Shown here in pieces: positions 7,648-23,246 of a stretch of 23,246 bases of DNA. The notes under the pieces were generated by a model. The model was not told where the DNA came from and searched no databases. It worked only from the letters and a program-made list of their open reading frames with translations. The stretch covers positions 1-23,246 of IMG/VR virus record IMGVR_UViG_3300029908_000152; one strand, written 5' to 3'. The stretch is from a virus. The translations under genes and the position numbers were made by a program. Numbering within the stretch: the stretch's first letter is position 1; each line of letters opens with the position of its first letter.

Positions 7648-9039
7648 ATGAGAATTAAACTTTCCTTACAATATATTCAAGAGCAACTTATCAAAGTACA
7701 TGGTGACTTAATTACTATTGCTCCCGAAACTTTTATTCCTGGAAATAACTATGCCACATTTATAGATAAAGAGTTTGGTCCTTGGAAGTCTAAAATTTAT
7801 CGTGTGTTGCATGGTGGAGCTTGTCGCAAGCGGTCCAAGAGATCTAAATTAGAGAAAGTGCAAGAGAAATTGAATAATTTATATGGTAAAGATATTGTTG
7901 TCATAGTTCCTGAAAGTTATAAAAAAGTTGGTGCAAAAGCTACTTTTATTGACAAGGAATTTGGGACTTATGACGCTTTGGTAATGAATGTTTTATTAGG
8001 GCATCGTAGTATTCCAAAATGTAAATATTATCATCCTGGGACTAATGAGCCTTTGATAGATTTTTGGCAGCGTTTTGGTGGTAACAAGATTACAATGCAA
8101 AAAGTAGTTTCTAAATACGGTGTTGATTCTGCTATTAGATATTTAGAAGAAAATTTAGATGAAACTGGGAAGTATAAAGCTTACATTAGTTCTTTAGAAT
8201 CTAAATTTCAAGAGTTATTTGTTGGATCGGTATTACAGTTTGAACGATGGAATAAAGAAGTTGAAGAATTAAAAAATACAGATAATGAACGTTCTCGTCC
8301 TGATTTTAAATTAAACTACAATGGAAAAGTTTTATTTATTGATGTACATGGCTTGTTTATTCATAATGAATTATATAAAGATAAGAAGTATCATTTTAAT
8401 AGACGAATAGCCTTTGAGAAGACTAATTTAAGATATATGCAATTCTATGAAGATGAGATTAGATTTCATGGAGATATTGTAAAGTCTATAATTTTAAATT
8501 TCTTTGGGTTGTCTCAGTATAAATTTGCAGCACGAAAGCTTATCATAAAAGAAGTTTCCAATATTGAGGCAAATAAGTTTTTTGTAAGTAATCATTTAAT
8601 GGGTCCTCATCATACAGCAAGATCAGTTGGTCTTTATAATAATGATATTTTAATTTCATGTTTATCTTATAGGTCTTCCTTTAAAAATGGAGCCTTAGAA
8701 ATTTCTCGTTTTGCTACTAGATTAAATACCTCCTGTGTTGGGGGATTTGGTAAACTTGTTAGTTATTTGAAACAGTTTAATAAATCTATTGTGAGTTACT
8801 GTGATTTAAGATATGGAACTGGCAAATCTTATGTTGCTCTTGGTTTTAAAGAACTTGGAACTACTCTTGGATGGGAATGGACAGATGGGATAAATCGCTT
8901 TAATCGTACTAAATGTAAAGCTGGAAATGGGAAGACTGAGAAGGAAAATGCAGCTGAGTTACATTGGCATCGAATTTATGATGCAGGTCAACGTAAATAT
9001 CAAATAGAAGTCCATATCAATGAGCAGAAAAATGTATGA
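7648..9039 (+). CDS. Vsr-like (EDxHD-type) homing endonuclease fused to a GNAT/Mom-like domain
   Basis: A 463-residue protein in three parts. Residues 1-125 hold two tandem copies of a DNA-binding-type repeat, each with ATFIDKEFG (37-44 and 98-106). Residues about 175-285 carry a Vsr-like nuclease fold of the PD-(D/E)XK class: Glu184 in SLESKF, Asp219 in RPDF, Asp232 in FIDVHG, YH at 248-249, and YEDE at 267-270. Residues about 295-455 match a domain often found fused to phage Vsr-like endonucleases, with GNAT/Mom-like features: NHLMGPHHTARSVGLY, EISRFATRLNT, VSYCDLRYGTGKSY and HRIYDAG. Its biochemical role there is not established. Such enzymes spread by cutting target sites. The gene has its own promoter and no ribosome binding site, implying leaderless translation. 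Its end overlaps the next ORF by 20 bases. Confidence 0.85.
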   Translation: MRIKLSLQYIQEQLIKVHGDLITIAPETFIPGNNYATFIDKEFGPWKSKIYRVLHGGACRKRSKRSKLEKVQEKLNNLYGKDIVVIVPESYKKVGAKATFIDKEFGTYDALVMNVLLGHRSIPKCKYYHPGTNEPLIDFWQRFGGNKITMQKVVSKYGVDSAIRYLEENLDETGKYKAYISSLESKFQELFVGSVLQFERWNKEVEELKNTDNERSRPDFKLNYNGKVLFIDVHGLFIHNELYKDKKYHFNRRIAFEKTNLRYMQFYEDEIRFHGDIVKSIILNFFGLSQYKFAARKLIIKEVSNIEANKFFVSNHLMGPHHTARSVGLYNNDILISCLSYRSSFKNGALEISRFATRLNTSCVGGFGKLVSYLKQFNKSIVSYCDLRYGTGKSYVALGFKELGTTLGWEWTDGINRFNRTKCKAGNGKTEKENAAELHWHRIYDAGQRKYQIEVHINEQKNV

Positions 9040-15083: not shown

Positions 15084-16595
15084 ATGTCAGGACGAACTCA
15101 AATTTATGGTGATCAAATTGTGGCTGGGGGTATTTCTGATTTAGAAATATCTGCAACTGCAGCTATTCAGATTAGCAAGATATCTCTTAATTCTGATCTT
15201 CTTCCTCTTACAAATAATTCTCAATCTTTGGGCAATGCTGCTGATACGTTTGAGAATTTATATCTGAAGACAGGACTTATATTACAACAGACTGGTATTG
15301 GCACAAATGGTATAACCCTCAAATCCCCGGCATCGGTTACTTCGTATAGTTTGGTATTCCCAAGTGCTCAAGCTACAGGTATTGAGGTATTACAAAATGA
15401 TGGATCTGGAAATCTTTCCTGGGTAGTTGGTGGCGGTGTTGGTTTTAGAGAAGATTATGTAGTAGGAACTCCCCTAAATAATTACACAGGGTCAACTACA
15501 GTTTTTAATCTAGTTAATTCCTATAATGTTGGAGGTCATACTTTACTTGTTATCTATGATGGTGTGACAATGACCCCAAGTGCAACTGTTGACTATGTGG
15601 AGACAAATAGTACTACAGTTACTTTTGATTATGCCTTGGTAGTCGGGTTGAAAGTTAGTTTTATATTCTCGCAACCCCCCTCTTCTACATCTGGCATTGT
15701 AAATAGTGGTACTACAGGGCAGATAGCTTATTATGCTTCTGGAGGCACAACTTTAAGTGGTGCGAATCTTTCGTCCATTAGTGTAACATCCATTACAGGT
15801 ACAGCCAATGAAGTTATTACTTCTGCTTCAACTGGAGCAGTTACTTTAAGTCTTCCCCAAGCCATTGCTACAACGTCTTCTCCAACATTTTCTTCATTAA
15901 CCCTATCCAATCCTCTAGCAATATCTAGTGGAGGTACAGGAAAAACTACTCTTTCTGCATTTGTTCCAACCATTCAAAAATTTACAAGTAGTAGTGGTAC
16001 ATATACTACTCCAGCAGGTGTTACATGGATTAGAGTAAGAATGGTTGGTGGAGGAGGGGGTGGGGGTGGTAGTGGAAGTGGATTTGGTGGTACGGGTGGA
16101 ACAGGTGGAAATTCAACATTTGGCACCTCATTGCTCGTTGCCAATGGGGGGGTTGGTGGTACTGATCAAAACCCTGGGCTTGGAGGCACTGGTGGAACTG
16201 CTTCTCTCGGTAGTGGACCCATAGGACTTAATTTGTCAGGGGGTCAGGGAGGAGATGGTAGTGCTGGAACTACTGCTGGTATAAATTATGTTGGCGGTAA
16301 TGGGGCAGCTTCAGCTTTTGGTGGTTCAGGTGGTGCCGGGTCTGAACAAGCTGGACACGCAGCTTCGACTAATACAGGTGGTGGCGGCGGTGGTGCAGGT
16401 GCAACGTCATCATCCGTATTTGGTGCTGGTGGAGGTGGATCGGGTGGATTTATTGATGCTCTGATTGTGAGTCCAACAACCACCTATTCTTACGTGGTAG
16501 GAGCAGCTGGAGCAGCTGGAACTGCTGGAACGAGTGGGTTTGCTGGTGGGGCAGGTGGAAGTGGCATTATTATTGTTGAAGAGTATTATATTTAA
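15084..16595 (+). CDS. Tail-fibre protein with polyglycine-rich tip
   Basis: A 503-residue protein with AAAGG before the ATG at 15084. The N-terminus (TQIYGDQIVAGGISDLEI) is a fibre-type start. Residues about 60-115 hold LQNDGSGNLSW and about 235-280 hold SLPQAIATTSSPTF, both shared with the 16822-17796 protein. Around residues 125-195 a hairpin module (LLVIYDGVTMTPSATVDY) recurs. From residue about 295 to the end lies a glycine-rich domain (WIRVRMVGGGGGGGGSG, then many Gly-Gly-X turns) closing with IIIVEEYYI. Glycine-rich tips of this type occur in phage adhesins, where packed polyglycine helices display variable loops that recognise the host. I infer it is a receptor-binding fibre. Confidence 0.85.
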   Translation: MSGRTQIYGDQIVAGGISDLEISATAAIQISKISLNSDLLPLTNNSQSLGNAADTFENLYLKTGLILQQTGIGTNGITLKSPASVTSYSLVFPSAQATGIEVLQNDGSGNLSWVVGGGVGFREDYVVGTPLNNYTGSTTVFNLVNSYNVGGHTLLVIYDGVTMTPSATVDYVETNSTTVTFDYALVVGLKVSFIFSQPPSSTSGIVNSGTTGQIAYYASGGTTLSGANLSSISVTSITGTANEVITSASTGAVTLSLPQAIATTSSPTFSSLTLSNPLAISSGGTGKTTLSAFVPTIQKFTSSSGTYTTPAGVTWIRVRMVGGGGGGGGSGSGFGGTGGTGGNSTFGTSLLVANGGVGGTDQNPGLGGTGGTASLGSGPIGLNLSGGQGGDGSAGTTAGINYVGGNGAASAFGGSGGAGSEQAGHAASTNTGGGGGGAGATSSSVFGAGGGGSGGFIDALIVSPTTTYSYVVGAAGAAGTAGTSGFAGGAGGSGIIIVEEYYI

Positions 16596-16643
16596 AGACT
16601 ACAATTACACAAATTTGTTTACAACTTACATTGATTTATTCGG

Positions 16644-16841
16644 ATGGCTCGAATGCAAATGACATGGTTTGCTGGTTCTTTTTCATCTCAGGAAGCACTT
16701 GATGCATGGCTTAATGATGAGAAAACTAGACCCTATTGGAATTCGCAGACACAAACGCAGATCGATGATAAAAGTACCACAATAGTTGAAAATTTTAGCA
16801 TCGAGATAAAGGTAAATAATTATGTCAAAAACACTTATTGA
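16644..16841 (+). CDS. Small hypothetical protein between two fibre genes
   Basis: A 65-residue ORF with three possible in-frame starts (16644, 16653, 16659) and no good ribosome binding site. It fills most of the 226-base gap between two fibre genes and overlaps the start of the next by 20 bases. The sequence is not low-complexity (MTWFAGSFSSQEALDAWLND, then a Gln/Thr-rich part, then a strand FSIEIKV). The overlap and composition make it plausible as a coding gene, though it could be a chance frame. No family recognised. Confidence 0.5.
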   Translation: MARMQMTWFAGSFSSQEALDAWLNDEKTRPYWNSQTQTQIDDKSTTIVENFSIEIKVNNYVKNTY

Positions 16842-17796
16842 TCCATCACTTTTAGCAACTACAATTCCAACAAGCATAGGTGGAACAGGTCAAACTACCT
16901 ATACTGATGGTCAATTACTCATCGGGGATAGTTCTACTAACGGATTGGATAAAGCTACAATTACAGGAACATCCAATCAAGTAATTATTACTAATGGCCA
17001 TGGGAGTATTACTCTTTCTTTACCACAGGCAATTGCAACAACATCTTCACCAACTTTTGCATGTGTTTATGCTACTGTTTTAATACAAGCAGCTACTTTA
17101 CAAGGAAAAAGTGAAATAATTGCTGGAGTTGGTGGTAGTAGTACTGGGCAACTCTTACTTGAAAATGCATCAAATTCTAATTTTGTGACTATTAGTGCTC
17201 CTACTGTTACTACTAGTTATTCATTAGCCTTACCTGTAGCTCAAGGTGGGGCAAGTACTTTACTTCAAAATGATGGATCTGGGAATCTTTCTTGGGCAAA
17301 TACACTATCCATAACCCGTATGACCCTGAATGGGAATTTAAGTTTTACTAATACAGCCACAGAGGGAATTTTAGGTACTGTAACGAATGATAGTGCTGCA
17401 GCAGGTAATGTGGGAGAGTACGTCAAATCTACTACAGCCACTGGTACAGCCGTTAGCTTTCCCGCGACTGGTGCCTATGGTGACATATGCAGCATAGCTT
17501 TGTCAGCGGGTGACTGGGACGTGACGGGTGTCGCGGTTTTCCATCTTAACGGTGCCACCATGACCGGAATTGGGATGGGTATCTCGGTCAACGCTGGGAA
17601 CATACCGGCGGGACTCGTGGAGGGTGATTCAAGCCTCAATCTGCCCCCTGCTCCAACGTCGGATGAGTCAGGAACCCTGCCAGCCGTTCGCATATCGTTG
17701 GCATCCCCCGGTAACGCATACTTGAAATTTATCGGATTGTACTCCGGTGGACCCCCACAAGCATATGGGCGAATATCTGCAAGAAGGGTGAGATAA
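16822..17796 (+). CDS. Tail-fibre protein with GC-rich receptor-binding-type C-terminal domain
   Basis: A 324-residue protein with AAAGG before the ATG at 16822. Residues 1-190 share modules with the upstream fibre: GGTGQTTYTDGQLLIGDSST, ITLSLPQAIATTSSPTF, and LLQNDGSGNLSW. Residues about 193-324 (from GNVGEYVKSTTATGTAVSF through SAGDWDVTGVAVFHLNG to the end) match a C-terminal domain common on phage and prophage tail fibres from many bacteria. Its DNA is far richer in GC (about 57% over 17461-17760 by hand count, against about 30% in 17161-17220) and uses C- or G-ending codons. I infer a recently acquired receptor-binding domain joined to a resident fibre shaft. Confidence 0.85.
   Translation: MSKTLIDPSLLATTIPTSIGGTGQTTYTDGQLLIGDSSTNGLDKATITGTSNQVIITNGHGSITLSLPQAIATTSSPTFACVYATVLIQAATLQGKSEIIAGVGGSSTGQLLLENASNSNFVTISAPTVTTSYSLALPVAQGGASTLLQNDGSGNLSWANTLSITRMTLNGNLSFTNTATEGILGTVTNDSAAAGNVGEYVKSTTATGTAVSFPATGAYGDICSIALSAGDWDVTGVAVFHLNGATMTGIGMGISVNAGNIPAGLVEGDSSLNLPPAPTSDESGTLPAVRISLASPGNAYLKFIGLYSGGPPQAYGRISARRVR
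17401..17793 (+). other. GC-rich, compositionally foreign segment encoding the fibre tip
   Basis: Hand counts give 171 G+C in the 300 bases 17461-17760. The change starts around 17400-17460 inside the reading frame and ends with the stop codon, where AT-rich sequence returns at once. The coding frame is unbroken across the junction. Confidence 0.85.
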
Positions 17797-17841
17797 TTTA
17801 AACCTTCCAACAGCTCAAGGTAGAATAAATCAAAGTAGTAG

Positions 17842-17870
17842 TTGCAAATATCACAAAGATATGATAAACT
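17842..17870 (+). promoter_or_regulatory. Extended -10 sigma70-type promoter for the small coiled-coil gene
   Basis: TTGCAA (17842-17847), a 17-base spacer, TG one base before the -10, and TAAACT (17865-17870). It lies in the gap between two genes. Unlike the two endonuclease promoters, about 35 bases of leader with a good AGGAG precede the ATG at 17912. Confidence 0.75.
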
Positions 17871-17911
17871 AAAACAGTAGGAGTATATACATAATAAATA
17901 GGAGAAAAGAA

Positions 17912-18172
17912 ATGAATCCAAGTGATGAAATTAAAGCAGTTGAGGCAGAGGTTGTTGGAGAAGTTAAGAAAGTTGAGGAAGTAGTAGTTAGCGAAGCAGA
18001 AAAGATTAAAGCTGCGGCCATTGCTCAGAAAGAAAATTTTGCAAAGCAACTTGCTCAAGTAAAAACAGATATGACAAAACTTCAGCAAGATTTTGAGGCT
18101 AAAAAGATCCTTGGTGTACGTTTAGAAGGGGCAATCGAGTCGGTAGAAATTCTGCTAAAGTCTCTTAGCTAA
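17912..18172 (+). CDS. Small coiled-coil protein, monocistronic
   Basis: An 86-residue protein with AGGAG upstream of the ATG at 17912. Nearly the whole length is rich in Glu, Lys, Ala, Val and Gln with no prolines after residue 3, predicting one long helix or coiled coil. The final part (LEGAIESVEILLKSLS) is amphipathic. There is no signal or membrane segment. It has its own promoter (17842-17870) and is followed by a perfect 32-bp palindrome, so it forms an independent transcription unit between the fibre block and the neck/tail block. That suggests a need for different amounts or timing from the structural proteins. It resembles in general character the 254-454 product. Function unknown. 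Confidence 0.85.
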   Translation: MNPSDEIKAVEAEVVGEVKKVEEVVVSEAEKIKAAAIAQKENFAKQLAQVKTDMTKLQQDFEAKKILGVRLEGAIESVEILLKSLS

Positions 18173-18200
18173 AGATAATAAAAATTTCATTTAAATAGTT

Positions 18201-18232
18201 ATAATAGAGCCTTTTTAAAAAGGCTCTATTAT
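18201..18232. terminator. Perfect 32-bp palindrome, probable bidirectional terminator
   Basis: The 32 bases are their own exact reverse complement, forming a stem with a GAGCC/GGCTC core and A/T-rich flanks. It lies 28 bases after the stop of the coiled-coil gene. Only a modest T-rich tail (TATTATCATGTTT) follows. An intrinsic terminator is the simplest reading; a protein-binding palindrome is an alternative. Confidence 0.65.
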
Positions 18233-18294
18233 CATGTTTAAAAAATTCGAGGTAATGTTGTATTGTAAATAAAGGATATAAGAGGTAGATAACA

Positions 18295-18858
18295 ATGGGC
18301 GATTCTTTTCAAATCCTTCCAGATCAAAGTCAATTTGGGCCTAACAGTCTAGAATGGTATTTTCTTTCTATTAGAGAGAAGGACAAATGGCTTTTAAATC
18401 AATCAGGAGAACGAATTTTATTATATAAAAGACGCTATGAAGGGCAACGATGCCCCCTATGGGATTCTGTGCGCGGAACCAGTGCACAGCATTCTGACAA
18501 GGTTTGTTATGGGACAGGATGGATAGCTCCTGATGCTAATCTTACAGGACCAGATATCGGTGGTCCTTACTATGGATTCTTCCAACCTATCGAAATTGTT
18601 GTAAGTTTATTATCAAGTGGACCTGAAGATTTGGCACTTACAGATTATGGGCAGCAAAGAATTTTTAAACCTCATTCGTGGACGGCTCATGAGCCATTGA
18701 TCACGCCTGGGGATGTTTTTCAGAGGAGAAATGGGACAAAATTTATTGTAACAGAAGTATTTCTAAGAAGGTGGAAGCATTACGTTTTACATCAAGACTT
18801 AAATTTATCCGAGATTGAAAGAGGATCTATTTTGTATCAGATGCCCAATGGTTTATAA
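18295..18858 (+). CDS. Probable neck / head-tail connector type virion protein
   Basis: A 187-residue protein with GAGG nine bases before the ATG at 18295. Its centre carries RRYEGQRCPLWDSVRG followed by CYGTGW and a GGPYYGFFQPIEI segment (Cys53, Cys71). This 'CP.WD ... CYGTG ... GGYY.P' pattern is one I associate with phage virion proteins near the neck, where the cysteines may hold a metal. The C-terminal half has mixed strands, including RRNGTKFIVTEV. The product sits just ahead of the tail-terminator-like and sheath genes, which fits the usual order of neck then tail genes. The assignment is by pattern recall and context, with no search. Confidence 0.6.
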   Translation: MGDSFQILPDQSQFGPNSLEWYFLSIREKDKWLLNQSGERILLYKRRYEGQRCPLWDSVRGTSAQHSDKVCYGTGWIAPDANLTGPDIGGPYYGFFQPIEIVVSLLSSGPEDLALTDYGQQRIFKPHSWTAHEPLITPGDVFQRRNGTKFIVTEVFLRRWKHYVLHQDLNLSEIERGSILYQMPNGL

Positions 18859-18865
18859 ATAGTAG

Positions 18866-18894
18866 TTGCAAAATCAATATAAATATGATATACT
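18866..18894 (+). promoter_or_regulatory. Extended -10 sigma70-type promoter for the zinc-finger GIY-YIG endonuclease
   Basis: TTGCAA (18866-18871), a 17-base spacer, TG one base before the -10, and TATACT (18889-18894). The ATG at 18901 lies seven bases after the -10 element, at the expected transcription start, with exactly the same spacing as at 7613-7648. Confidence 0.8.
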
Positions 18895-18900
18895 AGTAGT

Positions 18901-19929
18901 ATGAGAGTTAAAATTCGTGGAATTTATAGAATTAGAAATAAACTAAATGGAAAAGTTTATATTGGATCTGCAGAAGATATAGTAAATAGATTTTATGGAC
19001 ATAAATCGATTTTGCATAAAAATAAGCATCACTCTATTCTCCTTCAAAGAGCTTGGAATAAGTACGGTGAAGACCAGTTTGTATTTAAAGTAATTGAGAA
19101 AGTTGAGAAGCCCCTAAGTCTTAGAAAAAGAGAACAATATTGGATTAATTTTTATGATGCAGCTAATCCTAAGAAAGGGTATAATAGAAGTCCCACCGCT
19201 GGAAGCAATAAACATTTAGTTGGAAAAACTAAACCAAAAAAGAAAGTTGAATGTAAGTATTGCAAGGAAGTATTTTATTTAACGCCTTTCAAGGTTAAAC
19301 GTATAAAATATTGTAGTGTTTCATGTCGAAATAAGGGAAGAGTTTTGGTTTATTTTAAACGGACAAGGGCTAGAATAAAATGTACAAATTGTAAAAGAGT
19401 CTTTATTGTAATGAAATTTCGTGCAAAAAGCCAAAAATTTTGCAGTAAAAAATGTTTTGGTAAGTTTCGAATAGGAACTAAATTATCTTTAAAGGTTCGT
19501 CGTAAAATTTCTAAAGCTTGTATGGGAAAAGGTGGTAAGATAACTAATCCCCCCGTGAAACATTTTTGTAAGATTTGCAATAAAGTTTTTTATAAAAGAC
19601 CTTCTTTAAAGGCAAAATGTTGCTCTGCAAAATGCCGATGTATTTTCATTAGAAAGACTACTCTGATAGAATGTAAGGGATGTAAGAAAATAACTAAATT
19701 ATTGCCCTACTTAGTTAAATCTGCCAATCAAAAGTTTTGCACAAATCGATGCTATCAAAAGTATCGTAGGAATTTTTTTAAATTAGTTACTTTAAAATGT
19801 AAAAAATGTAATAAGAAATTTATAAGACATATATCTAGAAAAGCTTTATTTTGTAGTAATAGTTGTTCAGTATCTTATAGACATGCAAGAAATAGACTAT
19901 TAAAAGGTATAAAAAATGGCAAATGCTAA
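18901..19929 (+). CDS. GIY-YIG homing endonuclease with an array of five CxxC...CxxxC zinc fingers
   Basis: A 342-residue protein. The nuclease core is at residues 1-95: GIY 7-9, YIG 20-22, Arg30 and Glu78 as catalytic candidates. The rest is a DNA-binding region of five cysteine units of form C-x2-C-x(14-18)-C-x3-C: 118/121/138/142, 161/164/181/185, 223/226/241/245, 258/261/280/284 and 300/303/318/322. A NUMOD3-like helix (KLSLKVRRKISKACMGKG) sits between units two and three. The protein is very basic. It should recognise a long DNA site. The start cannot be later because the GIY motif begins at residue 7. No ribosome binding site precedes it, so leaderless translation is likely. The last 14 bases overlap the start of the next gene. 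Confidence 0.9.
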   Translation: MRVKIRGIYRIRNKLNGKVYIGSAEDIVNRFYGHKSILHKNKHHSILLQRAWNKYGEDQFVFKVIEKVEKPLSLRKREQYWINFYDAANPKKGYNRSPTAGSNKHLVGKTKPKKKVECKYCKEVFYLTPFKVKRIKYCSVSCRNKGRVLVYFKRTRARIKCTNCKRVFIVMKFRAKSQKFCSKKCFGKFRIGTKLSLKVRRKISKACMGKGGKITNPPVKHFCKICNKVFYKRPSLKAKCCSAKCRCIFIRKTTLIECKGCKKITKLLPYLVKSANQKFCTNRCYQKYRRNFFKLVTLKCKKCNKKFIRHISRKALFCSNSCSVSYRHARNRLLKGIKNGKC

Positions 19930-21292
19930 TCCTTACCTTATTTTAAAACGTGTGCGTGATAGTGTAATTCTGGAACTTAGGGAATTATTCTCTCCTCAGA
20001 ATAATACTGCTGTAGTACCTCCATTTGAATTTAATTACATTGAATCAGCTGCTACAGGTTCAATTATGTTCTATGGTAATCCATCCATTGGGAATATGCT
20101 TACTATTGGACTAAATAATATTACATTTGGTACAGATGTTGCTATTGGTGCCACTCAGCAGATTACTCTTGCAAATTTGGTTGCCTATATTAATGCTCAC
20201 TCTTCAACTTTGCTAGTAGTAGCTACTACAAATAGTATCCCAAATAAAATTGCTCTTGTAGCTGTTACAACGGGTGTTGCGGGTAATTCAATTACTTTAG
20301 CAACTACTTCCACTGTGTTAAAAGTTTCTGCTCCTACTTTAACCCAAGGTGGACTATTCGATTTTGATAATTCAGAAATTTTTATATCAGATGCCATACC
20401 GCAGAACTATCAAGATTGGCCCTGTTTGATTGTTGATACTGCTAGTGCGTCTGAGACTCGTTATCTTGGCCCAGAGGATGCCTTTGAGTTAAAGAACTCC
20501 TCTAATGTAGTCACAACATCTGAAATATTTTCTAGCCTTGTTGTTAATGTGAATATTAAACTCTATGTAATTGATGATACATTGGCTAGGGATAAAATTC
20601 TAGATTTGATTTATAATAATATTTCAGAAATTAGAACTGTCCTAGCACAAAATGGCATTGAGATGATTGATCGTTCAATGCCTACTGAAACAAGAACGTT
20701 TCAAGATCAACGTCAATATATTACAAATAGTTTTATTTTAAGAGTTTATTGTGAATGGAGTGATAATCAGGAAATTACAAATATAACAAGTATTGGGATC
20801 TCTGTTCCAGTTCAAACAGCCCTTGCTCCAATTATAAATAGTCCTTTAAGTGCTTCCTATAGTCATGGTGTTCAATTTGTTGTAGATTCTGTGGTAGATG
20901 GCACTCATTTGAATGTTGAAAGTGCTACAGGAATGGCTAATGGAAACACAATTGTACAAGGTACGCATAGCACTACAATTATAAATATAATAGATAATAA
21001 TCATTTAGAAGTGGGAGATACAACTGGATGGGTTATAGGCATGGCTACAGATGCCTCAGTTAATTTGCCATTTAGCTATCAAATTACTGCTTTAAATAAT
21101 CCTACTTTACCATATGGATGGGTTGCTGTTCCACCTCCAGCAAGTCCAGTACTTCCTCCAGGATTGAGCCTGGACTCCTCCAATGGCCTTATAAGTGGTA
21201 TTCCTAGTGTTAATGGAACTTACTATATCACTTTATCTGCTTCTAATGCTACCGGAACAGGCACAGGTTCTCTTACTTTAACCGTTTCATAA
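19916..21292 (+). CDS. Tail-terminator-like protein with inserted domain and Ig-like (He_PIG-type) C-terminus
   Basis: A 458-residue protein whose ATG and AAAGG lie inside the end of the preceding endonuclease gene. Residues 1-40 and about 146-285 look like one domain (YLILKRVRDSVILELRELF; VNVNIKLYVIDDTLARDKIL; ITNSFILRVYCEW) of the type seen in tail completion or terminator proteins. Residues about 42-146 are a separate beta domain (IGATQQITLANLVAYINA, GVAGNSITLATT, LTQGG) interrupting it. The C-terminus (305-320 plus 386-458) is a putative-Ig domain with LPPGLSLDSSNGLISGIPSV and GTYYITLSASNATGTG. This domain is itself split at residues 322-384 by the DGTHL/GDTIVQG module. The gene directly precedes the sheath, which supports a tail role. 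Confidence 0.75.
   Translation: MANANPYLILKRVRDSVILELRELFSPQNNTAVVPPFEFNYIESAATGSIMFYGNPSIGNMLTIGLNNITFGTDVAIGATQQITLANLVAYINAHSSTLLVVATTNSIPNKIALVAVTTGVAGNSITLATTSTVLKVSAPTLTQGGLFDFDNSEIFISDAIPQNYQDWPCLIVDTASASETRYLGPEDAFELKNSSNVVTTSEIFSSLVVNVNIKLYVIDDTLARDKILDLIYNNISEIRTVLAQNGIEMIDRSMPTETRTFQDQRQYITNSFILRVYCEWSDNQEITNITSIGISVPVQTALAPIINSPLSASYSHGVQFVVDSVVDGTHLNVESATGMANGNTIVQGTHSTTIINIIDNNHLEVGDTTGWVIGMATDASVNLPFSYQITALNNPTLPYGWVAVPPPASPVLPPGLSLDSSNGLISGIPSVNGTYYITLSASNATGTGTGSLTLTVS
20879..21067 (+). other. DGTHL/NTIVQG beta module nested in an Ig-like domain
   Basis: Encodes residues 322-384 of the 19916-21292 product, between GVQF and SYQITALNNP. In ordinary putative-Ig domains those two motifs are adjacent, so the module looks inserted into a loop. 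Confidence 0.65.
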
Positions 21293-21443: not shown

Positions 21444-23246
21444 ATGCCTCAAGTACAAGGCCAATTTACGACACCTGGTGTTTACTCTACTGTCCAAGCT
21501 AATGCTGAGCCTACAAGTGGCCAAGGTGTAAGAATCCCTGCCCTTATTGGTACTGGTAAGCAAACCAATACTGCATCGAACATTGCCATTACTCGTGGCA
21601 GTGGATCTACAGATACATTATCTCCTGCTGCAGTTTCTATTGATGGGAATATTCAAGATCAGAATTTTATTGTCTACTACAATGGTGTTGACTTCACATT
21701 GAATAGTGGAAATGTTGAATGGCTTACACTTGCTGCTCAACTTACTGGAACCACAAGTGATCCTTATGCAAGTTTGATGGGATTGAATTTCCAACTAGCC
21801 ATTGCTAATGGTGCAGTACAAACAATTCCTCTTACAACGGAAACAACTGCTACTGCAGTAGCTGCAACATTGAATGCATATTTTATTGCACATTCTATTG
21901 CTGCACATGCTTCTTCAACAGCAACTCCTCTACCTTCCCCACTTCTTACTGCAGCTACATATGCTGTTATTGCAAGTAGCACAATTACAAATACAGGAAC
22001 TACTACTCTTACAGGAGATGCTGCTCTTTCTCCTGCTGGTGGATCTATCACAGGTTCTCCTACAGTTACAGGGACAACTAATAATGGTAATTCAGCAGCG
22101 GCAACAGCTTTAGCTGATGCTAATACTGCTTATACAGCATTTGCAGCCCTAGCTGGTGCCACAGTTCTAACGGGCGATTTGGGTGGAAAAACTCTTACCG
22201 CTGGTGTCTATAAGTATAGTTCTTCAGCAGCCTTAACAGGTACTTTGACACTAGATGCAGCAGGTGATCCTCATGCACAATGGATATTCCAGATTGGAAG
22301 TACTTTAACTACAGCTGCAGCTTCTTCTGTTGTTATCATCAATGGTGGAAGTGCAGGAAATGTTTATTGGCAAGTTGGTAGTTCTGCTACATTGGGAACT
22401 ACAACAGCATTCCAGGGAACTATTCTTGCTCAAGCAAGTGTAACAGCTACAACTGGTGCAACTGTTCAAGGACGACTATTTGCTCTTACAGCTGCTGTAA
22501 CACTAGATACCAACACAGTAACTGTTGTTCCTGGTGGATCTTATTCTTCAGGGGCTCTCGTAGTTTCTTCTTCGACTGCCACTTCAGATTCTTCACTTTA
22601 TATTGGAACTGGCACAGCCAATGCAATTCTTGGTTTTACTGCAGGTTCCTTTGTTGAAACTCCTCAAGCTCCTCTCGCTGGTGTTGAGTATTATGTAACC
22701 TATGAGTATGCTAAAGTTGCTGCTGATTATACTCCTAAGTTCTATTATACACTAGCAGCTGTTGTGACTGATTATGGTCCAGTTAGCAGTTCCACATCCA
22801 TTTCACTTGGTGCAAGTTTAGCATTCCAAAATGGTGCTCCTGAAGTTTGTGTTTGCCAAGAAAGTCCATTTGATGGTGGTTCGCCTATTGCTAAAGTTCA
22901 AGCTGCCTTGAATAAACTTCTTTCTACACAGAATATCAGCATTGTAGTTTCACTTGAAGGGGCATCAAATGCACAGCTTCTTCCAGCAATTAAACAACAT
23001 GTTGACACCGCAAGTTCTACTATTAATCGATTAGAGAGAACAGCTATTGTAGGTTTCGATGAGACCGTTGCAATTTATTCAGATCAAAATATGATTGACT
23101 ATGCAGCTTCAGTTAATGATAATCGTATTGTTCTTTTGAATTCTTCAACTGTTAAGAATACAATGTACATCGGACAGGCAACCACTGCAACAGCAGTAGG
23201 TAGCCAATTTGTTGCTGCAGCATTAGCTGGTGTTCGCTGCAATTCA
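21444..23246 (+). CDS. Tail sheath protein with nested DUF3494 (ice-binding-like) domain, 3'-truncated
   Basis: 601 residues are encoded before the window ends. AAGGAG lies seven bases before the ATG. The start (QFTTPGVYSTVQANAEPTSGQGVRIP, broken here only by the limits of quotation) is typical of contractile tail sheath proteins, as is the region from about 465 on: CQESPFDGG, VVSLEGASNAQLLPAIKQHV, RTAIVGFDET, DNRIVLLNSS and the VAAALAGV run at the edge. Residues about 65-95 hold the hairpin module (FIVYYNGVDFTLNSGNVEWL). Residues about 105-158 and 366-415 (ALVVSSSTATSDSSLYIGTG) look like two halves of one surface domain, split by a DUF3494 domain at 173-361. The sheath surrounds the tail tube and contracts to drive it into the host. 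The insertion should project outward. Confidence 0.85.
   Translation, partial: MPQVQGQFTTPGVYSTVQANAEPTSGQGVRIPALIGTGKQTNTASNIAITRGSGSTDTLSPAAVSIDGNIQDQNFIVYYNGVDFTLNSGNVEWLTLAAQLTGTTSDPYASLMGLNFQLAIANGAVQTIPLTTETTATAVAATLNAYFIAHSIAAHASSTATPLPSPLLTAATYAVIASSTITNTGTTTLTGDAALSPAGGSITGSPTVTGTTNNGNSAAATALADANTAYTAFAALAGATVLTGDLGGKTLTAGVYKYSSSAALTGTLTLDAAGDPHAQWIFQIGSTLTTAAASSVVIINGGSAGNVYWQVGSSATLGTTTAFQGTILAQASVTATTGATVQGRLFALTAAVTLDTNTVTVVPGGSYSSGALVVSSSTATSDSSLYIGTGTANAILGFTAGSFVETPQAPLAGVEYYVTYEYAKVAADYTPKFYYTLAAVVTDYGPVSSSTSISLGASLAFQNGAPEVCVCQESPFDGGSPIAKVQAALNKLLSTQNISIVVSLEGASNAQLLPAIKQHVDTASSTINRLERTAIVGFDETVAIYSDQNMIDYAASVNDNRIVLLNSSTVKNTMYIGQATTATAVGSQFVAAALAGVRCNS
21960..22526 (+). 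other. DUF3494 / ice-binding-protein-like beta-solenoid domain inside the sheath
   Basis: Encodes residues 173-361 of the sheath. The characteristic order of the family is complete: TYAVIASSTITNTGTTTLTG, then SPAGGSITG, an Ala-rich helix (ATALADANTAYTAFAALAG), TGDLGGKTLTAGVYKYSSSA, LTGTLTLDAAGDPHAQWIFQ, IGSTLTTAAASSVVIINGG, VYWQVGSSATLGTTTAFQGT, ILAQASVTATTGATVQGRLF and AVTLDTNTVTV. Base composition and codon choice resemble the flanking sheath sequence. Confidence 0.85.

Follow-up and report, generated by a model that had tools for sequence, protein, structure and literature searches.

A tail-fibre gene of an AT-rich phage with a tip domain probably imported from a phage of middling base composition

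A gene that changes its base composition within its own reading frame raises the question whether its parts share one history. We investigated this question in silico for a tail-fibre gene (16822-17796, plus strand, 324 amino acids) located in a viral contig of 23,246 bases with 37.4% G+C, which is called the window in the following and denotes the whole stretch of DNA analysed. It is a fragment of a contractile-tailed phage from the region of the structural genes, with a tail sheath gene at 21444 (match to phrog_2839, E=8.5e-22), fibre genes between 12837 and 17796, and fibronectin-type proteins. As the records sharing its backbone are as long as 108-180 kb (L085, L083, L072 and L187) and the hits of gene 18295 are weak and confined to Bacillus phage G and Tunturiibacter phage Tunturi_5, the window is probably a fragment of a large phage. 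The fibre gene itself is matched by two tail fiber protein families: phrog_31660 covers the shaft (E=1e-11), and the tip is matched by phrog_11393.

The shaft (16822-17373) has the codon usage of the resident phage and a G+C content at third codon positions (GC3) of.147; it ends past the segment LQNDGSGNLSW and a short spacer. If counted up to 17397, its G+C content is 37.2% with a GC3 of.146. The shaft is followed by the linker that is conserved in the tip family (GTVTNDSAAAGNVGEYVKSTT, 17374-17436) with an intermediate GC3 of about.27, by the tip core (17461-17760), and by a conserved C-terminal end (GRISARRVR and the stop codon, 17761-17796), where GC3 goes down to.25 over the last 12 codons. 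The tip as a whole has a G+C content of 55%. For the core we measured exactly 57.0%, which is the figure given in the earlier note on this DNA, with GC1 of.58, GC2 of.56 and GC3 of.57. A Bayesian change-point model places the change in GC3 at nucleotide 17410 (95% CI 17278-17464, log10 Bayes factor 9.0), that is within the linker, and GC3 before and after this point differs with p=7e-11 in a Fisher test. From the stop codon on (17797-18297) the G+C content is 32%, and GC3 reaches.5 nowhere in the window except in the tip. The earlier note had described a shaft of about 30% G+C, a change of composition at the start of the domain and a return of AT-rich DNA at the stop codon. The return is confirmed and so is the contrast with the shaft, which GC3 expresses, but the percentage given for the shaft was too low. 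The change does fall at the start of the domain; the homology itself begins slightly upstream of the boundary drawn at the time, at residue 185 (GTVTND, nucleotide 17374).

Two explanations that do without a foreign origin bear directly on this break. The high G+C content could result from the amino-acid content of the domain, with its many Gly, Ala, Thr and Ser residues. The neighbouring fibre gene (15084-16595, plus strand), which has the shaft motif LQNDGSGNLSW in common with the fibre under study, provides an example of such an effect: its glycine-rich tip exceeds 50% G+C (15965-16600) yet has a GC3 of only about.20, and amino-acid content is therefore the cause of this peak. In the tip under study GC3 itself rises from.15 to.57, and in other AT-rich phages the same domain has a GC3 of.13-.27. 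As the change of composition is carried by the third codon positions and hardly accounted for by the first and second, the amino-acid make-up is not its explanation; this candidate is refuted by GC3 and retains next to no probability. A chimeric joining of two phages at the tip during assembly would agree with the sharpness of the break and with the window being a metagenomic fragment. A contig from an independent metagenome (L002), however, is identical to window positions 15847-20840 (5 kb) at 99.98% with the junction included, which is an argument against a chimeric assembly and for a join that is real DNA. Furthermore, the reading frame is unbroken over the join, the resident composition is back at the stop codon, and the same kind of join is present in the related phages L005 and L087. 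The assembly chimera is rejected on account of L002, and we give it hardly any chance.

The codons of the core point to the kind of phage from which it probably came. Their score is -1.67 nats per codon under the usage of the window compared to about -1.31 under that of phages with 46-56% G+C, a gain of about 36 nats over 100 codons, and the usage of phages with 60-70% G+C fits less well again (-1.41 nats per codon). For the shaft codons the window's own table was the best of all tables tried. Judged by how GC3 varies with genome G+C, a GC3 of.57 corresponds to a genome of about 53.5% G+C. The donor would be a phage of roughly 50% G+C, with a codon fit at about 46-56%. The earlier note had proposed capture from a GC-rich phage or prophage; import is backed by GC3, codon usage, relatives and trees, while the donor turns out to be of middling composition. 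The donor search by tip protein that it had proposed gave no close candidate in the viral-contig scans, the genome scan and the phage collection: among the matches listed, the best relative of the tip (L184) shares 52% of the amino acids. Eight named phages possess the tip at 30-37% identity, with Enterobacter, Pectobacterium, Xanthomonas and Burkholderia as hosts. The genome scan also found it in contigs of Cupriavidus and Paraburkholderia, with a tip GC3 of.52-.85 and without close similarity.

The tip, comprising the last ~130-140 residues, matches the C-terminal part of the PHROG 11393 tail fiber protein (E=1.8e-8), its residues 1-132 being aligned to profile positions 414-538 of 538. A scan of viral contigs with the tip alignment yielded at least 534 confirmed relatives among the 600 matched stretches listed, so the description as a common tail-fibre C-terminal domain was correct. 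The domain is widespread among phages without the backbone of the window. Its homology extends from GTxTNDxAAAGxVGEYV to ARR[VI]R and the stop codon, and the conserved motifs of the family are GTxTND..GxVGE, LTAGDWDVTG and ARR[VI]R. No Pfam model covers the tip, and a sequence search of the PDB returned insignificant matches only. The structure was predicted with AlphaFold2 from 74 sequences as a single chain, giving an all-beta model of eight strands with a mean pLDDT of 93.9. In a Foldseek comparison with the PDB the top matches of this model are jelly rolls, at TM scores of only about.4-.6. The jelly rolls retrieved, with TM scores of about.3-.6, include a tail protein of cyanophage A4 (TM.60), the N-terminal lectin of BC2L-C, a TNF-like lectin, human 4-1BBL, and viral jelly-roll capsids. 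In the BFVD, the same part of fibre-like proteins from uncultured phages reaches TM scores of.8-.9. The tip is modelled as a putative TNF/C1q-like jelly roll, and its position and predicted fold suggest a trimeric head that would bind a ligand on the host surface. We also observed two or three tips of the family in a row, each with its own core, in L187 (4025-5041), L185 (2700-4426) and L010 (798-1651).

Relatives of the backbone were gathered using gene 18295 as a handle. The tip domain occurs in the same fibre locus in the window, L005, L087/L088, L090, L072 and, twice, in L187; it is absent from the searched stretches of L083, L084, L085, L089 and L091, and from the records of L083, L085 and L089 as well. 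Comparing related phages for alternative tips, as had been suggested, reveals copies of high GC3, copies of low GC3 or no copy at one and the same locus. Core GC3 is high in the window (.56-.57), L005 (.57) and L087 (.60), and it is low in the AT-rich versions of L187 (.27 and.19), L090 (.27) and L072 (.22). We ranked 2167 stretches of one hundred codons from 12 loci of the resident group (mean GC3.20, SD.07): the tips of L087 (.61), the window (.56) and L005 (.56) are the three top genes, and the next gene reaches.49. These three tips share only 42-48% of their amino acids (window and L005 47.6%), compared to 77% identity of gene 18295 between the window and both L005 (77.5%) and L087. At 42-48% identity the synonymous sites would be long saturated, so that separate imports explain the pattern well, and a single high-GC3 tip of ancient origin explains it poorly. 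This suggests that high-GC3 tips were captured three times or more in this phage group, in the window, L005 and L087.

An exchange between unlike phages can be seen in L072 (37% G+C) and L016, a phage of 54% G+C without a sheath and without a homologue of gene 18295. Their tips (residues 469-611 and 518-660) are 74.8% identical in amino acids, and the nucleotide similarity between the two phages starts exactly at GTNTND and stops beside the stop codon. Here a tip transfer is directly visible. The tip of L016 has a GC3 of about.43 compared to.72-.74 in its own shaft, and the flow of tips may therefore go either way.

The phylogeny of the tips was used to weigh a single acquisition against repeated ones. 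One ancient acquisition in the phage group, after which selection acting on codons or on mRNA structure maintained the high GC3, would agree with the similar GC3 of the tips in the window, L005 and L087 (.56-.61). A clade made up of these three and L090 alone, without L072 and L187, is also not rejected (AU p=.24). When all tips of the resident group are held as one clade, however, the AU test rejects this with p=9e-5 in one tree (5 rows) and with p=1.9e-5 in another (7 rows), and one of the two L187 tips (L187b) groups with L201 (support 97/88). By these two AU tests the phylogeny of the tips is incongruent with the backbone. As the four-tip clade has p=.24, the independence of the three high-GC3 captures is based on another argument: an ancestral GC3 could not have survived in tips that have diverged to about 45% identity. 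The low GC3 of the domain in other members of the group (.19-.27 in L072, L090 and L187) and the 47.6% identity of the window and L005 tips next to 77.5% in the neighbouring gene 18295 likewise speak against the ancient acquisition, which we consider unlikely. The earlier note had held that AT-rich homologues with a smooth phylogeny would contradict an import; such homologues exist in L072, L090 and L187, and the phylogeny is not smooth. Its recent capture is in agreement with GC3 and codon usage but should not be seen as a single event, since L005 and L087 have their own high-GC3 versions. The tip could also be the target of a diversity-generating retroelement instead of an import. Such elements commonly target C-terminal fibre domains. 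Against this reading, no template-like repeat of the tip is present within 16600-18400 and the differences between tips are spread over the whole domain; we regard it as very improbable.

We therefore favor a chimeric origin of the fibre and hold it to be very probable: a putatively receptor-binding tip, modelled as TNF/C1q-like, was recombined from a phage of ~50% G+C onto a resident AT-rich shaft. The tip would still have its foreign GC3 because the import was too recent for synonymous sites to drift to the resident composition. As each tip of the family brings its own conserved linker and end, the tips could be interchangeable on the resident shaft as jelly-roll heads. The resident and the incoming tip may recombine with a 5' crossover in or near the GTxTNDxAAAGxVGEYV linker and a 3' crossover near the ...SARRVR-stop end, with the core being replaced and resident DNA staying at both edges. 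In the window and in L005 the GC3 break is found 12-14 codons inside the homologous domain, past its first residue, and the last 12 tip codons are low in GC3 again (.25 and.08, respectively). Nucleotide similarity between these two tips is confined to the linker (17367-17432, 76% over 66 bases). A swap of this kind may plausibly have shifted the host range, as the earlier note suggested, and the altered tip would then have changed adsorption specificity.

Whether the linker serves as a general handle for the crossover was a question for larger sets. Over 40 loci the slope of GC3 on the shaft is about.8-.9 for the linker and about.3-.5 for the core (difference.41, CI.18-.61); without the window, L005 and L087 the slopes are.94 and.68. 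In a separate set of 22 loci the difference is.21 (CI -.20 to.53) and not significant, and the absolute GC3 distances of linker and core from the shaft do not differ. That linker GC3, unlike core GC3, tracks the shaft was consequently not accepted as a general rule, being significant in the first set but not in the independent one. In L087 the foreign stretch begins 118 codons upstream of the linker, which is thus not the sole join used. Given the shrinking contrast, the null result in the 22 loci and L087, a role of the conserved linker as a crossover handle is no more than suggestive, a lead and not a result. It is a tentative and rather doubtful extension that the tip represents a general-purpose exchange cassette, in which the linker and the SARRVR end would be short homology handles staying with the resident phage, and the receptor-binding core would be traded both ways among phages from ~36% to >60% G+C, including AT-rich phages with large genomes.

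We further report several observations on the surroundings of the fibre gene. The module REDYVVGTPLNNYTGSTTVFNLVNSY of the neighbouring fibre (window 15444-15770) recurs at 58-69% identity in L003, which has 57% G+C, and in L016, L187, L005 and L087; it is another travelling fibre piece, with resident GC3 in the window. A GIY-YIG endonuclease gene (18901-19929, plus strand; PF01541, E=3.8e-10) adjoins the fibre locus, and its product could drive recombination around it. A second gene of this type (PF01541) is present at 461-1063, and in L083, L086, L089 and L090 a GIY-YIG gene lies inside the fibre locus or directly upstream of the gene 18295 homologue. The tail-sheath protein (gene 21444-23246) contains an ice-binding-like domain (PF11999, E=1.3e-55) at residues 175-360. 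This domain seems to be a variable insertion, since the sheath matches cover it in L005, L083, L084 and L090 and jump over it in L072, L087 and L091; segments of the domain also have matches in other genes of these relatives. Compared to L090, the sheath gene is 97-98% identical (9174-10970 in L090), gene 18295 73% and the tip about 38%, and identities this unequal indicate that the backbone itself is mosaic. A small gene (17912-18172) follows the fibre genes in the window, whereas its homologue is located between the 12837 homologue and the fibre genes in L084, L085, L089, L090 and L187; the fibre block has therefore shifted its position with respect to this gene. Directly 3' of the small gene, an inverted repeat (18190-18243, arms of 27 nt, 81% complementary) looks like a transcription terminator. 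At 7648-9039 the window encodes a protein of 463 amino acids that contains two repeats (ATFIDKEFG) and is matched by no Pfam model.

The locus represents a clean natural record of a tip swap between phages that differ in base composition, with backbone relatives that retain other versions of the tip. Third codon positions give the direction of the import, and the crossover can be placed to within tens of codons. Should a larger sample bear out the linker-handle rule, the sequence by itself would suffice to recognise a tip exchange and its likely partners.

That phages shuffle receptor-binding domains is already well documented (PMC10684548, PMC10579305, PMC13195805), and the window fibre is a new instance of it. 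Smug et al. (2023, PMC10684548) reported that domains of tail fibres and tail spikes have been shuffled recently, the N-terminal part being conserved and the C-terminal part variable. The window fibre resembles these mosaics in its exchanged C-terminal domain and differs from them in that the event is legible by GC3 and codon usage within one gene, with a single tip family that turns up repeatedly at the same locus within one group of phages. Homologous host-recognition parts were found in unrelated Alteromonas phages of distant families (Gonzalez-Serrano et al. 2023, PMC10579305). There, the fibre and a chaperone move as a module, in contrast to essentially the terminal domain alone in the window, where we recognised no chaperone gene next to the tip. 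The fibre protein gp24 of the myocyanophage Pam3 forms a trimeric fibre with a TNF-like jelly roll in its distal part, to which receptor recognition is ascribed (PMC9608196). The jelly-roll domain, in the window fibre a predicted one, is distal in both fibres; gp24 did not appear as a sequence match to the tip in the PDB search, possesses an extra glycine-rich domain and needs a chaperone, whereas the predicted jelly roll is the last domain of the window fibre. The PHROG 11393 tail fiber protein matches the whole tip with its C-terminal part and has a different shaft. In Pectobacterium, carotovoricin tail-fibre loci are exchanged by homologous recombination, which leads to variable C-terminal fibre domains (PMC13195805); this exchange takes place within one bacterial genus via flanking homology, and that proposed for the window between phages of 37% and about 50% G+C. 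Seen against these systems, the window is a case of ordinary fibre mosaicism, made unusually legible by the agreement of composition, codon usage, tree and relatives with other tips.
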